A stretch of 36,198 nucleotides of DNA from positions 1 through 36,198 of IMG/VR virus record IMGVR_UViG_3300020202_000170; one strand, 5' to 3'. The DNA is from a virus. A program made the translations under genes and the position numbers. A model generated the notes under the pieces. That model did not search any database and was not told the origin of the DNA. It saw nothing but the letters and a program-made list of their open reading frames with translations. Shown one piece after another: positions 5,439 through 34,507 of the stretch; the stretch's first letter is position 1; each line of letters opens with the position of its first letter.

Positions 5439-6227
5439 TCAGAACGGCGGCGCTCCAGCCGCTTCCAACGCCTCGTCGCTGAACGTCAGCTCCACGTCAT
5501 CCGGCACGTCCAGATCGACGACCGACTCCGCGTAGGCCGGCCAGTAGCCGCTCTGCTCGCAGACCTGGAACCGTTCGAACCAGAGCCGCCACAGCCGCTC
5601 GCCCTGCTCCAGCGCCCGCGACGTCAGCCGCAGCACCGTCACCGGGTAGGGCGGCGACGACTCGACCGCGACGATGTACGCCTCTTTCGGCTGCCCCAGC
5701 CCAGCCGCCTTGATGGCGTTCAGTTGCCAGGACAGCTGCCCGTGGTAGCCGAGCCGCAGCGCATGGCTCTGGAACCGCACCGGGTCGGCGCTGAACGTCG
5801 TCTTTAGTTCGACCGCGCGCGAGTCGTACACCGCTACGTCAGGCGTGCAGCGGCAGTCGCGGCCGTTGATCTTGAAGTTGATCGTCTTCTCGCGCGTCCC
5901 CTCGAGCAGCCGCACGGCCTCCTTGTGGCGCCGTACCGCCTCGGCCATGGCGGCGGCTTTGTCGTGCTCGGCCTTGGTCAGGATGAGCGCACCGCCGTTC
6001 TCGGCCTGGAACGCATCCCACTCCTTGCCGCGACGTACAGCGCCTGGGTAGCTCGTCACCTTCGCCGTTTCGAACAGCAGAGCGTGAACGGCTGATCCGC
6101 GCTGCATGGCTGCCGTCTCGTCGGACAGCCCTTGCGCGTCCAGTTCCATCTTGAGCTTGGCGAACGCGGGGCAGCGGCCGACCGCGCGCAGGTAGTCGAA
6201 GCGCACCGGGAGCGCCGGGAGCGTCAC
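5439..6227 (-). CDS. RecE/DUF3799-like PD-(D/E)XK exonuclease
   Basis: A 262-residue protein starting at GTG 6227 in a GTGA overlap. It shows the ordered motifs of the PD-(D/E)XK nuclease fold of RecE/DUF3799 exonucleases. RGSAVHALLF near residue 44 has H48. PDVAVYDSRAVELKT has D130, E140 and K142 as the metal-binding and catalytic residues. GYHGQLSW has Y161 and Q164. Such enzymes degrade one strand of linear double-stranded DNA from its end to feed phage recombination with an annealing protein. No RecT-like annealase is visible. The preceding gene may supply a single-strand-binding function. The fold assignment is strong and the substrate polarity is inferred. Confidence 0.88.
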   Translation of the reverse strand: MTLPALPVRFDYLRAVGRCPAFAKLKMELDAQGLSDETAAMQRGSAVHALLFETAKVTSYPGAVRRGKEWDAFQAENGGALILTKAEHDKAAAMAEAVRRHKEAVRLLEGTREKTINFKINGRDCRCTPDVAVYDSRAVELKTTFSADPVRFQSHALRLGYHGQLSWQLNAIKAAGLGQPKEAYIVAVESSPPYPVTVLRLTSRALEQGERLWRLWFERFQVCEQSGYWPAYAESVVDLDVPDDVELTFSDEALEAAGAPPF

Positions 6228-7119: not shown

Positions 7120-7289
7120 CGCCGCACCTCCGCGCACTCCGAGCACCACGCCCCGTCACGGTCCCGCACCGTCGCCGGCCGGTTGAAGTGACGATCGCAG
7201 CGCATCAGCCCCGTATGCGCGCAGACCTCGCAACCACGGCCAGCGCAGGGGCGGCCGAGAACGGTGGCGTTGCAGAGCATGAATGGCAT
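7116..7289 (-). CDS. 57-residue cysteine-rich protein
   Basis: A short gene supported by its junctions: ATG 7289 overlaps the previous TGA in a TGATG, and its own TGA overlaps the next GTG. The product MPFMLCNATVLGRPCAGRGC... carries C, C, CEVC, a CDRH and a C-terminal CSEC. That is seven or eight cysteines and one histidine, and fits a two-zinc knuckle. No family named. Confidence 0.65.
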   Translation of the reverse strand: MPFMLCNATVLGRPCAGRGCEVCAHTGLMRCDRHFNRPATVRDRDGAWCSECAEVRR

Positions 7290-7546
7290 CAGCGCACCAA
7301 CTCCGTGCGCGGCCCGGTGAACAGCCGCTCCTCGCGGTCCGATCCGTCGACCGAGTCCGGCCAGCGCCAGCCCAGTTCGTCATCCTGCTGGGAGTAAAAG
7401 CAGAGCCACACGCCGTCACGCTCGGTCGTGACCGTGAAGCCTGTGTTGCCAGCCTCTTCGACGGTGCCCAGAACGCCGCGCGGGTTCAGCAACTCAACGA
7501 CGTCACCGACCGCCGGCCGGCGCCCAACCTTGTTTGTCGTGTCCAT
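7289..7546 (-). CDS. first gene of the early operon, small KOW/SH3-like protein
   Basis: An 85-residue protein starting at ATG 7546. No Shine-Dalgarno is present, and a -10-like TAAAGT lies 7 bases upstream, so the message may be leaderless. Residues 12-42 (AVGDVVELLNPRGVLGTVEE) look like the small beta-barrel seen in KOW/SH3-like domains. The C-terminal half is acidic and probably flexible. Function unknown. It is controlled by the operator just upstream. Confidence 0.75.
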   Translation of the reverse strand: MDTTNKVGRRPAVGDVVELLNPRGVLGTVEEAGNTGFTVTTERDGVWLCFYSQQDDELGWRWPDSVDGSDREERLFTGPRTELVR

Positions 7547-7574
7547 GGTTAAGACTTTACCCACGCTCTTAACC
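7547..7574 (-). promoter_or_regulatory. inverted-repeat operator over the early promoter
   Basis: On the plus strand GGTTAAGA (7547-7554) and TCTTAACC (7567-7574) are perfect reverse complements separated by 12 bases, so their centres are 20 bases apart, close to two helical turns. The repeat brackets the -10 element and lies just before the first early gene. It is downstream of a gene for an HTH regulator, which is its most likely ligand. Binding is inference. Confidence 0.8.
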
Positions 7575-7581
7575 AAGTCAA
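7554..7581 (-). promoter_or_regulatory. early operon promoter
   Basis: On the minus strand TTGACT (-35, 7576-7581) and TAAAGT (-10, 7554-7559) are separated by 16 bases. The -35 matches TTGACA in five of six bases and the -10 fits TAnnnT. The expected transcription start is the ATG at 7546 or the base before it, giving a leaderless message. The inverted-repeat arms sit in the spacer and at the start site. Confidence 0.65.
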
Positions 7582-7618
7582 GCGCAATTCGACCAAGGCC
7601 CATCATCTCCGTCGCTGG

Positions 7619-8074
7619 CTAGTGCTGCGGGCGCAGCTTCGAGGCGGGGTAGCCGGTCAGCTTCTCGAACTTCTTAGCCTTCGCGTCTGACATGTGCTTT
7701 TTGCCAGACGCCACGAGGGACATGAACGCCGTAGAGACCTTGAGGGCGCCTGCGATCGCTCCCAGCGACGGCATACCGGCCCGGCGGGCGTATTCCATCC
7801 ATTCGGGCTCGTCGGTGAGCATCTTCTGGCTGATGGCTTGGCGCTGCTGCGGCGTCACGCTCTTAACCTTGCCCGACTCTTTACCGCGCGTCAACCGCGC
7901 GCTGCCCTCGCTCGACCCCTCCGTCTTCCGCCTCGCCTCCACAAACGCCCGCACCGCTACCGCCTCCTCAGCCAGCCGCCGCGCCCGGTCCAGGTCCCCT
8001 GCAGCTACTAGCTTGGCCACCTCGCGCTCCATACGCGCGGCCTCGGCCTCGAGGAGGTCTAGCGGGAGCGGCAC
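7619..8074 (-). CDS. HTH repressor-like regulator of the early operon
   Basis: A 151-residue protein starting at GTG 8074. Residues 1-50 are a charged helical region, about 53-74 a flexible linker, and about 102-135 a helix-turn-helix of the lambda-repressor type (SLGAIAGALKVSTAFMSLVASGKK). A short C-terminal helix follows, and no peptidase or cleavage domain is seen. It lies immediately before the early promoter, whose perfect inverted repeat is a natural target. A role as a repressor of the early operon is inference. A leaderless start is possible, with a -10-like TAGCGT 7 bases upstream. Confidence 0.8.
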   Translation of the reverse strand: MPLPLDLLEAEAARMEREVAKLVAAGDLDRARRLAEEAVAVRAFVEARRKTEGSSEGSARLTRGKESGKVKSVTPQQRQAISQKMLTDEPEWMEYARRAGMPSLGAIAGALKVSTAFMSLVASGKKHMSDAKAKKFEKLTGYPASKLRPQH

Positions 8075-8081
8075 GCCCCCA

Positions 8082-8111
8082 ACGCTACCACGGGCGCCGC
8101 GTCGGTATCAA
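8082..8111 (-). promoter_or_regulatory. possible leaderless promoter of the regulator gene
   Basis: On the minus strand TTGATA (8106-8111) lies 18 bases before TAGCGT (8082-8087), and 7 bases separate this from GTG 8074. The -35 is good but the -10 is weak. It lies within the end of the upstream gene. Confidence 0.35.
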
Positions 8112-8258
8112 TTTGGGGGTTTTCTCGGAATCTTGGCCACGGGCGCGTTCCTGCGCCATGTCGGCCAGTAGCTCAAGCTTCGCGGCAAAGTTGGCGTTGC
8201 CCGCTTTCGCCTCCAGCGACGCGATCCAGCGGATCCAGGCTACGTCATCGGCGTTCAT
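8085..8258 (-). CDS. 57-residue hypothetical protein
   Basis: The ATG at 8258 overlaps the stop of the nuclease gene in ATGA. The product begins MNADDVAWIRWIASLEAKAG and is helical for about 40 residues, with a basic C-terminus. It has no recognised motif. Codon use is like the neighbours and supports coding. The promoter of the regulator gene lies within its end. Confidence 0.65.
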   Translation of the reverse strand: MNADDVAWIRWIASLEAKAGNANFAAKLELLADMAQERARGQDSEKTPKLIPTRRPW

Positions 8259-8557: not shown

Positions 8558-8991
8558 GTCGTCTCTTCGCTACCCACGCCAGCCCCGGCCCACCTGGCGA
8601 TGTGGCCGTCGGCCTTCTTCCGGCGAATGTCGACGTGGACCCAGGAGCGATACGCCCCGATGCCGCCCAGGTCGGGCAACTCGCCTTCACGCACCATGTC
8701 CTCGATGAGACCGCGCAGCGGGTCGACGCGCAGCACGTCCACCGGCCGGATGTCGGCCGCCTCACCGGTGACGTGATAGCTGCTCTTGGCGCCGCCTACG
8801 CGAGCGTTCCAGGTGCGGGACCGCCACCCGCTGACCACGATGATGGGACCGCCCCACGCCTTACGGATGGGCTCCAGGAGCAGTTCGCACAGGCGCCTGA
8901 CGTCGGGCTGGCACTCGGGCGGGACCGGGGTGCCGTCATTGCAGCGGAACTCTTCCCACGCAAAATTCGTGGTGACGTGCGTGAGGCTCAC
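8554..8991 (-). CDS. peptidase M15 endolysin
   Basis: A 145-residue protein starting at GTG 8991 in a GTGA overlap with the preceding gene. It is a full-length D-Ala-D-Ala carboxypeptidase-like M15 domain. SSYHVTGEAADI has H73 and D80, and WVHVDI has H119 and D121, giving the zinc ligands and acid of this family. No signal peptide or wall-binding domain is present, so it needs a holin to reach the peptidoglycan. It probably cuts cross-linking peptides at the end of infection. Confidence 0.9.
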   Translation of the reverse strand: MSLTHVTTNFAWEEFRCNDGTPVPPECQPDVRRLCELLLEPIRKAWGGPIIVVSGWRSRTWNARVGGAKSSYHVTGEAADIRPVDVLRVDPLRGLIEDMVREGELPDLGGIGAYRSWVHVDIRRKKADGHIARWAGAGVGSEETT

Positions 8992-9311
8992 CTACCGCCC
9001 CTCAGCGCAACTAGCAGCTTGCGCAGCTGCACCCAGCTCGTCGGCGTGGCTATCGTTGCCAACGCCAATAACCCCCATCCCCACTTCGGGACGCCAAGGG
9101 GGCCGGGCGTATTGTCCATGAGCAGGCCCGCTGCCTTCCACGCGCAGAACAGGCTCACCGCCCCCCCGGTAATCTGCGCGACCACTTCCGAGGCCACCGA
9201 TCGCGGCGATACCGAGGCCGATGAGTGCGTAGACGACGAGGACGACGGCGTACCGGAATCGGGGCCAGTGTACCTGCGCGGCTCGTCGGAATCGAACTGC
9301 TCGTCGCTCAT
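8988..9311 (-). CDS. holin-like membrane protein, possibly frameshifted
   Basis: A 107-residue protein starting at ATG 9311, just upstream of the endolysin with a 4-base overlap. Residues 50-67 and 77-95 are hydrophobic (GGAVSLFCAWKAAGLL and GWGLLALATIATPTSW). The segment between, about residues 17-47, is a Ser-rich low-complexity stretch, odd for a holin. Over that same stretch a different frame (an ATG at 9315, better spaced to GGAGGAG) encodes FRYAVVLVVYALIGLGIAAIGGL with codons ending in C. The true protein may contain this segment through two compensating indels, at CCCC and at a 7-G tract (9161-9167). Holin is inferred from position and hydrophobicity. Confidence 0.6.
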   Translation of the reverse strand: MSDEQFDSDEPRRYTGPDSGTPSSSSSTHSSASVSPRSVASEVVAQITGGAVSLFCAWKAAGLLMDNTPGPLGVPKWGWGLLALATIATPTSWVQLRKLLVALRGGR

Positions 9312-19357: not shown

Positions 19358-20034
19358 CAGTAATCCCCCACGCAGAAGCGGATGCGGCCACGTTCGGTCT
19401 CATCCAGCATGGCTTTGTCCTTGTCCGGGTTGACGACCTTCATCAGGTACGCCGCGTGATTCAGCATCCCGGCCTTGACGGCGAACTCGTGGGCAAGCAG
19501 GTACGTGATCGTCTTGAGCCACTTGGGCTCGAGGTCCAGCGTCACGTTGCCCGTATCGGTGTCCCGCAGCTTGCGGTACTTCTGGTAGATGAAGGTGTAC
19601 GCAGCGTCGCTCTTAACCGGAAAATTGACCGTGACGGTCCCGGCCGACGTTTTCTCTACGTAGAACTCCAGCGGGCGCGCGATTGTGGTCTTTGACGACC
19701 GGCGAAAGTAGTCGTCTCGGCTGATGCGCGTCGCCTCGCTGTCCACGTTCGACGAATCGCGCAGGTTAGCCACCGGACCGACGTCAACGGTATCGGCGTC
19801 GGCCGTAAAGCCCGTGTCGTTCGCCGCGACGGCCTTGGACACGCGCTCGACGGCCCGAACGATCAACCCCTCTTTCTGCAGGTCCAGGATGATGAGTTGC
19901 AGCGCCCGGGCGCCAAAAGCGATCTGATCGGCGTCCGCCGTGTGCCCGTCGTGGAGCTGGCGCGCGAGGCTCGCCGCCTGCGAGATGATCTGATCTCGCT
20001 GCATGTCGAACGTGGCCGTAGTGGAGACAGCCAT
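19357..20034 (-). CDS. gp4-like head-tail connector/completion protein
   Basis: A 225-residue protein starting at ATG 20034, overlapping the next gene in the operon at one base (ATGG/TAATG junctions). The helical N-terminal half (RDQIISQAASLARQLHDG, ARALQLIILDLQKEGLIV) and the beta/helix middle resemble P22 gp4-like packaged-DNA stabilisation proteins that bind under the portal. It is longer than P22 gp4 (about 166 residues). The position before the tail genes supports this. Confidence 0.75.
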   Translation of the reverse strand: MAVSTTATFDMQRDQIISQAASLARQLHDGHTADADQIAFGARALQLIILDLQKEGLIVRAVERVSKAVAANDTGFTADADTVDVGPVANLRDSSNVDSEATRISRDDYFRRSSKTTIARPLEFYVEKTSAGTVTVNFPVKSDAAYTFIYQKYRKLRDTDTGNVTLDLEPKWLKTITYLLAHEFAVKAGMLNHAAYLMKVVNPDKDKAMLDETERGRIRFCVGDY

Positions 20035-32904: not shown

Positions 32905-33249
32905 CTATCTCCTCTCTTCCCCTCCATCCCGCCCAATCGCCTCAGCGAAATTCGTCACTGCCGCTGCCGTCGCGTTCTCGCTCCTCAAGAACGCCGTCAA
33001 ATCGCGCTGCTGTATGCGCCAGTGTGGATGCCCTTTGCCGCCGTCTGGCTTGGCGTGTATCGCCGTCGCTTTGAGCCAGCCTCGATGAATCCAGCGGCGT
33101 ACCGTCTCGACATGCACACCCAGCGCTGTTGCCACCTCCGAGACGCAGAACCATCGCGTTGGGCCGCGTCCTCCTCGCTGGGCCTTGTAGTAACGTGGCT
33201 CACCGTTCCACGTGTACCTATTGGGGTTGGCGTCTATAGTTGCAGCCAC
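32905..33249 (-). CDS. MerR/Xis-type helix-turn-helix regulator
   Basis: A 114-residue basic protein starting at GTG 33249. Residues 35-62 (CVSEVATALGVHVETVRRWIHRGWLK) are a winged-helix HTH of the MerR/excisionase type, and the flanking beta segment (YTWNGEPRYYKAQRG) and basic parts fit DNA contact. A TATACT lies 6 bases upstream of the start codon, so the message may be leaderless. It sits between the divergent promoters and the late operon, so it may set late expression. Excisionase function is possible but no integrase is in view. Confidence 0.8.
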   Translation of the reverse strand: MAATIDANPNRYTWNGEPRYYKAQRGGRGPTRWFCVSEVATALGVHVETVRRWIHRGWLKATAIHAKPDGGKGHPHWRIQQRDLTAFLRSENATAAAVTNFAEAIGRDGGEERR

Positions 33250-33255
33250 GTCCCC

Positions 33256-33261
33256 AGTATA
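33256..33261 (-). promoter_or_regulatory. -10 element of the regulator gene
   Basis: TATACT on the minus strand, six bases before GTG 33249, which would make transcription start at the start codon (leaderless). No good -35 is seen at the usual distance. It matches the TAnnnT pattern seen at the other probable leaderless starts here. Confidence 0.5.
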
Positions 33262-33366
33262 GCCGTCGCTCCTCGTGGCCTGACAGCCGAAGGCTAAACC
33301 GCGCGTTGGCGTTTTGGCCTCCTAACCCGGCTATCACGTTTGGCGAAATATCTCAATCAGCCCCGT

Positions 33367-33849: not shown

Positions 33850-34065
33850 CTACCGCGTCCGCCCCTTGCGCTTGGAGGGCTGCTGCTGGGGCCGTGGCAG
33901 CGGGTCATCCACGCTCACCGCCAGCATTGCCGGCGCGTCCTTGGGCAGCCGCACGTTCCAGGGCCACTCGTTCAGCTTGGCGCGTATCCGCTTCATCTCG
34001 CTCTCTGGCATGTAGGGCGCCAGCGATACCGCCTCCCGCCCCTTCGCCTTGCCCTTGCGCTTCAC
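33850..34065 (-). CDS. small basic hypothetical protein
   Basis: A 71-residue protein starting at GTG 34065 in a GTGA overlap. Basic N-terminus (MKRKGKAKGREAVS) and C-terminus, with a middle KLNEWPWNVRLPKD stretch. No known motif. It is the last gene of the right-hand accessory set and converges with the plus-strand pair. Confidence 0.62.
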   Translation of the reverse strand: MKRKGKAKGREAVSLAPYMPESEMKRIRAKLNEWPWNVRLPKDAPAMLAVSVDDPLPRPQQQPSKRKGRTR

Positions 34066-34262
34066 GGTACGAGCTCCCAGTCGGTGGCGAGGATGTCATC
34101 GGCCATGGCGCCCCAAAATCCCACAGGCACCGTGTCGCCGGGTCGCAGCGACTCGATCAGTTGCCCACGCACGACGCGCACTGCCTTGTGTTCGGCCCAT
34201 TCGCGCCGCCTGAAGTATTGCCCCGTCGTGCGCGCCTCCCTCACCACCTCCACCAGCGTCAC
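34062..34262 (-). CDS. possible DUF2829/Tad2-like protein
   Basis: A 66-residue protein starting at GTG 34262, overlapping the previous stop in GTGA. It reads TLVEVVREARTTGQYFRRREW... and ends ADDILATDWELVP. The pattern of an N-terminal helix, basic R-x2-W, and a terminal D-x-A-x-DWE-V matches short DUF2829-family proteins. Some DUF2829 phage proteins (Tad2) sequester Thoeris signals. This is motif-level likeness only. Confidence 0.6.
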   Translation of the reverse strand: MTLVEVVREARTTGQYFRRREWAEHKAVRVVRGQLIESLRPGDTVPVGFWGAMADDILATDWELVP

Positions 34263-34507
34263 GGCTGGTCCTTGGCTGGCAGTTGGTCGGCCGTTACGTG
34301 GCCCGTGCCGCCGCACGTCGGACACGTCTGCGCCCCGCCCAGGTAGTCGTAATCTGACTCCAGCCGCACGACGGAAATGGACCCGCGGCCGGTAGCGCCC
34401 TCGATGTAGGCGCCGCCGTTGTGAAGGTCGAGACGCATTAGCCTGAACTTGCTCCCGTCAGACTTGCGCCGGAACCACTCACCCACGTTTTGGTATCCGA
34501 CTGACAT
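34259..34507 (-). CDS. small protein with DnaJ-like zinc motif
   Basis: An 82-residue protein starting at ATG 34507 in a TGATG overlap. It is a beta-rich first half (VGEWFRRKSDGSKFRLMRLDL) with CPTCGGTGHV near residue 62, a single CxxCxGxG knuckle as in DnaJ. It has only that pair, so zinc binding would need another partner. Function unknown. Confidence 0.65.
   Translation of the reverse strand: MSVGYQNVGEWFRRKSDGSKFRLMRLDLHNGGAYIEGATGRGSISVVRLESDYDYLGGAQTCPTCGGTGHVTADQLPAKDQP

Follow-up and report, generated by a model that had tools for sequence, protein, structure and literature searches.

How is transcription of the early genes controlled in a phage whose convincing genes are all on one strand, and does the short gap in front of these genes hold an operator for a repressor encoded next to it? 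The window analysed here is the complete IMG/VR record IMGVR_UViG_3300020202_000170, which has 36,198 nt. It belongs to a high-GC tailed phage in which every convincing gene is on the minus strand, and its terminase is about 29% identical to the terminases of Pelagibacter, Roseobacter, Puniceispirillum and Rhizobium phages. The original prediction placed an early promoter and an overlapping inverted repeat in this gap, directly before a leaderless first gene, and proposed the HTH gene just upstream as the source of the repressor. The features discussed are collected in Table 1.

Two further IMG/VR contigs are overlapping pieces of the same phage, about 99% identical, and they span everything in the window from position 8559 or 8912 onwards. 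One of them runs 7.9 kb past the window end without closing the genome; encoded in this extension are a partial tyrosine integrase (PF00589), which suggests a temperate phage, and a protein resembling a single-strand binding protein. Given this added sequence, the phage record is incomplete, and another repressor could exist. None of the overlapping contigs of this phage (L020-L023) extends into the HTH region or the promoter-repeat element. Past the window end, the two contigs that overlap it part from each other, and blocks that match alternate with blocks that do not, as in a mosaic (L021 from 12285; L022 1-7889). Within the window, the small protein before the endolysin (8988-9311) is only about 52% identical to its counterpart in the otherwise 99% identical contigs, which corresponds to a local swap. 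An 87-aa protein at 34062-34325 has a sub-threshold match to Tad2-like proteins (Thoeris anti-defence 2; PF11195), with an E of 5e-4 that falls short of the gathering score, and likewise to phrog_643.

Table 1 Features of the promoter region and related sites in the window.
Feature	Position	Strand	Basis
Sigma-70-type promoter core, TTGACT-16-TAAAGT	7554-7581	-	Best PSSM score on either strand
Putative operator, 9-bp perfect inverted repeat TGGTTAAGA-N12-TCTTAACCA	7546-7575		P about 0.001-0.006 in the 72-nt gap
85-aa ORF starting at ATG 7546, probably the leaderless first gene in the early unit	7289-7546	-	Codon usage; -10 distance; no strong SD
Alternative N-terminal extension, ATG 7606/7603, probably non-coding	7547-7606	-	Codon statistics
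Candidate repressor, 151 aa; N-terminal half helical, C-terminal half modelled as a Cro/CI-type HTH	7619-8074	-	
Possible weak promoter TTGATA-18-TAGCGT, ends 7 nt before GTG 8074	8082-8111	-	
GGTTAAGAGCGTG, second copy, within the HTH gene, encodes V-K-S-V	7856-7868	-	
Third copy, GGTTAAGAGCGAC, 11/13 match, in a structural-region gene, codes V-K-S-D	19606-19618	-	

The promoter and the inverted repeat

On the minus strand, TTGACT (7581-7576) is followed by 16 nt, TAAAGT (7559-7554), CTTAACC and ATG 7546. The bases and coordinates originally given for this element, including the 7 nt between TAAAGT and the ATG, were all right on re-reading. Its hexamers have a spacing within the 16-18 nt of sigma-70-type promoters, and it stands above the background. 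With a PSSM of approximate E. coli frequencies, it scores 15.4 and ranks first among the sites of both strands in the 36 kb, while the next two sites score 11.4 and 10.6. A promoter that matches 9 of 12 consensus bases is unremarkable alone, since 2 are found in the 36 kb and about 3 are expected. Another candidate, which precedes GTG 7858 within the HTH gene, was judged too weak to be a second, internal promoter.

The arms of the repeat, GGTTAAGA and TCTTAACC, lie at 7547-7554 and 7567-7574. The original description of a perfect 8-bp inverted repeat with centres 20 bp apart is right, and the repeat is perfect over 9 bp when the flanking T/A is counted, with the arms 12 nt apart. It overlaps the spacer, the end of the -10 box and the predicted start point of the promoter, so that a symmetric site overlies the promoter core, the arrangement expected of a repressor-operator switch. 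The repeat sits in the 72-nt AT-rich gap between the stop of the HTH gene and ATG 7546. The record has six such AT-rich dips, which mostly fall at gene gaps.

Inverted repeats of at least 8 bp are common in the whole record (22 seen against 31 expected), and the promoter could be real while the palindrome arose by chance and has no regulatory role. We find this quite improbable. The probability of such a repeat in the 72-nt gap is low, with P of about 0.006 for at least 8 bp and about 0.001 for at least 9 bp in shuffles, and the arm GGTTAAGA is the most over-represented 8-mer of the record (4 copies against 0.07-0.19 expected). The longer word GGTTAAGAGCG, at 7574, 7868 and 19618, is the top-ranked over-represented 11-mer, with 3 copies against 0.0026 expected. 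Over-representation was judged under a second-order Markov model of the record; other words are nearly as extreme, and this ranking is therefore support, not proof. The PSSM rank, the gap-specific probability and the over-representation of the motif are independent statistics that back the promoter/operator reading.

The minus strand can also form a 9-bp stem that ends at the start codon. The repeat could then be an RNA hairpin, acting as an attenuator or in translation control in read-through transcripts, and not a DNA operator. Folding is no better than that of shuffled sequences (z -0.59, 53 of 200 as good), a U tract is absent, and the repeat is centred on the promoter elements; we give the hairpin a very slim chance.

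When the 28-base repeat pattern was searched in viral contigs, it gave five hits, all unrelated: three precede psbA-like genes in contigs of low GC, and the other two are in coding sequence. No DNA similarity was found in phages. The tetramer TTAA has five sites in the whole record, all of them in GGTTAAG, and two of the five form the inverted repeat. It is avoided beyond codon usage, with 3 sites in genes compared with 14.7 in synonymous shuffles. A clustering of the half-site GGTWAAGW, with five of six copies in 7547-7885, was defined post hoc and was not counted as evidence.

The start of the first gene

The 85-aa ORF has coding-like codon usage (0.38 bits/codon), and ATG 7546 has at best a weak SD-like match, while most other genes carry SD sequences. 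TA-led leaderless genes of bacteria have a TANNNT motif about 12 bp upstream of the start, a signature that is commonest in Actinobacteria and Deinococcus-Thermus (PMC3160421). Here, the first T of the motif is 13 bp upstream of ATG 7546, and the equivalent distance is 12 bp at GTG 33249. These are the two of 45 starts examined that combine a strong -10 box 6-7 nt upstream, TAAAGT and TATACT respectively, with no strong SD. CTGTCA-19-TATACT, at 33249-33286, ends 6 nt short of GTG 33249, the start of an HTH_17 (MerR/excisionase-like) gene that lacks an SD and, judged from these elements, is likely a second leaderless regulatory gene. The leaderless pattern at GTG 8074 is weaker because the promoter there overlaps a plausible 57-aa ORF (8085-8258).

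The downstream gene could, alternatively, start at ATG 7603/7606 and encode 105 aa. The promoter and the repeat would then be coding sequence, with a match by chance. The extension is open and in frame and has GGAG 3 nt before ATG 7603, 12 nt past the HTH stop, a start that the original prediction did not mention. Its peptide MGLGRIALDLVKSVGKVL looks helical, and the exact 20-mer TTGACTTGGTTAAGAGCGTG has one other occurrence among viral contigs, where it codes for the same DLVKSV in an unrelated gene of an unrelated contig with 51% GC (L040). Against this start, chance would not readily put the best promoter of the record at this position, and the codon statistics of the extension are poor; we consider it unlikely. 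The leaderless reading of ATG 7546 is favoured, with fairly good confidence, because the 20 codons of the extension have a GC3 of 0.55 compared with 0.85 for the phage, a codon score that ranks at the 0.9 percentile among coding windows, and a TTA codon, which is found 3 times among 9669 codons, and because a test of coding against non-coding favours the latter by about 7 bits. The leaderless start that had been predicted also agrees with the distance of the -10 box, the lack of a good SD and the recurrence of this pattern at GTG 33249. A search for relatives of the 85-aa or 105-aa ORF found none.

The candidate regulator and the copies of the motif

The gene of the 151-aa protein is located just after the lysis genes and just upstream of the promoter, on the same strand, and its codon usage is phage-like throughout. 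The protein has no match to a Pfam HTH family and only weak matches to phrog_638/4441 (E 0.13-0.15). Searches with the full-length protein and its C-terminal part in viral contigs, bacterial genomes, and phage and plasmid records gave no convincing relative; one of the searches gave weak hits only, with E of at least 0.2. The full protein, folded without an alignment, gave a poor model (pLDDT 60), and a single-sequence model of its C-terminal 76 residues has five helices (pLDDT 77). Foldseek matched the C-terminal model to SinR, the C proteins of restriction-modification systems, 434 Cro (2cro), TP901-1 CI and numerous Cro/CI domains of phages, with a probability of about 1 but E values of 0.03-0.1 and none below 0.02. 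On this model, the C-terminal half can be described with moderate confidence as a Cro/CI-type HTH. The HTH assignment of the original prediction is supported by this model but not made certain.

That the 151-aa protein represses the promoter is plausible only. Neither the protein nor the DNA has recognisable relatives, and therefore nothing comparative links the protein to the putative operator; as the 85-aa protein also has none, there is no conservation test of the operator. The RecE-like exonuclease gene (5439-6227), which is downstream of the promoter, gave no bacterial relatives, and its relatives L002 and L003 have no HTH gene matching the 151-aa gene.

The promoter and the repeat could be real and serve a different regulator, either another phage protein, such as the HTH_17 protein or a repressor from the part of the genome that is missing, or some factor of the host. 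The HTH_17 gene (32905-33249) is the other DNA-binding candidate in the window and has Pfam support, and the genome is still not closed by the 7.9 kb that the overlapping contig adds. Furthermore, one arm of the repeat reads TTAACCAT, which we take to resemble a half-site of the alphaproteobacterial regulator CtrA, but the full CtrA site, TTAA-N5-8-TTAA, was looked for in the record and is absent. On the other side, no DNA-binding gene is closer than the 151-aa HTH gene, and within 300 bp there is a further copy of the motif. A different regulator is, in our judgement, unlikely.

The 13-mer CACGCTCTTAACC is found at 7562-7574 and again at 7856-7868, which confirms the copy that had been noticed inside the HTH gene. 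The third copy was absent from the original prediction; it is also present in the overlapping contigs, and the 7.9 kb extension contains no further copy. All three full copies have one orientation relative to transcription, and the possible promoter of the HTH gene itself has no GGTTAAGA site. Read in frame, each of the two in-gene copies encodes Val-Lys-Ser, a tripeptide that occurs only twice in the predicted proteins examined, with the same codons both times. These copies may be codon coincidences, or they might be additional binding sites. The half-site proposed inside the HTH gene belongs to an over-represented motif, but it equally just spells Val-Lys-Ser-Val.

A proposed switch and its relation to known systems

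The promoter/operator candidate is real and better than chance, and the neighbouring regulator is plausible. Where transcription actually starts, whether a protein binds, which protein this is and in which direction it acts are inferred as follows. The transcript would begin at ATG 7546, or a base or two from it, and the first gene would therefore be leaderless. The repeat would be the operator. Its occupation by a regulator, for which the 151-aa HTH protein is the most likely candidate, would exclude RNA polymerase and shut off the early unit, including the exonuclease. We put this scheme as a whole just short of an even chance. The switch may serve lysogenic repression, as an integrase is present, or late shut-off, as the HTH gene follows the lysis genes. 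If the scheme is true, an uncultured phage without characterised regulators has a compact single-promoter switch, and there is a hint that it expresses its regulatory genes from leaderless messages, which would help to narrow the host.

This kind of switch is already known. The two predicted leaderless genes resemble the TA-led genes of bacteria (PMC3160421) in their TANNNT 12-13 bp before the start and the lack of a strong SD, and differ from them in being phage genes with starts predicted from sequence. The repressor of cluster A mycobacteriophages binds operators and stoperators, more than 20 asymmetric 13-mers in promoters and short intergenic spaces (PMC9283540). Like the stoperators, the 11-13-base motif has copies that are co-oriented when full, two of them outside the promoter. 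Unlike them, there are only three copies in place of more than 20 largely intergenic sites, two are in coding sequence, the promoter copy belongs to an inverted repeat, and no sequence relation was found. For a stoperator-like system to have arisen independently here, the 151-aa protein, whose N-terminal half is unlike known repressors, would have to bind GGTTAAGAGCG both at the operator of the leaderless promoter and at the co-oriented in-gene sites, and to block initiation and also impede read-through in a one-directional genome; we regard this as highly improbable.

In lambda-type CI/Cro systems, a divergent cI/cro pair surrounds dyad-symmetric operators, three of 17 bp, and cI is translated from a leaderless message when transcribed from PRM. 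The region studied here differs from such an immunity region, as the convincing genes near the site are all on the minus strand, with no divergent pair around shared operators and with the candidate regulator upstream and co-directional. In place of three 17-bp operators, it has one repeat with widely spaced arms. It resembles the lambda-type systems in having a modelled Cro/CI-like HTH protein beside an early promoter with a dyad-symmetric site over its core, and resembles cI from PRM in its predicted leaderless message.
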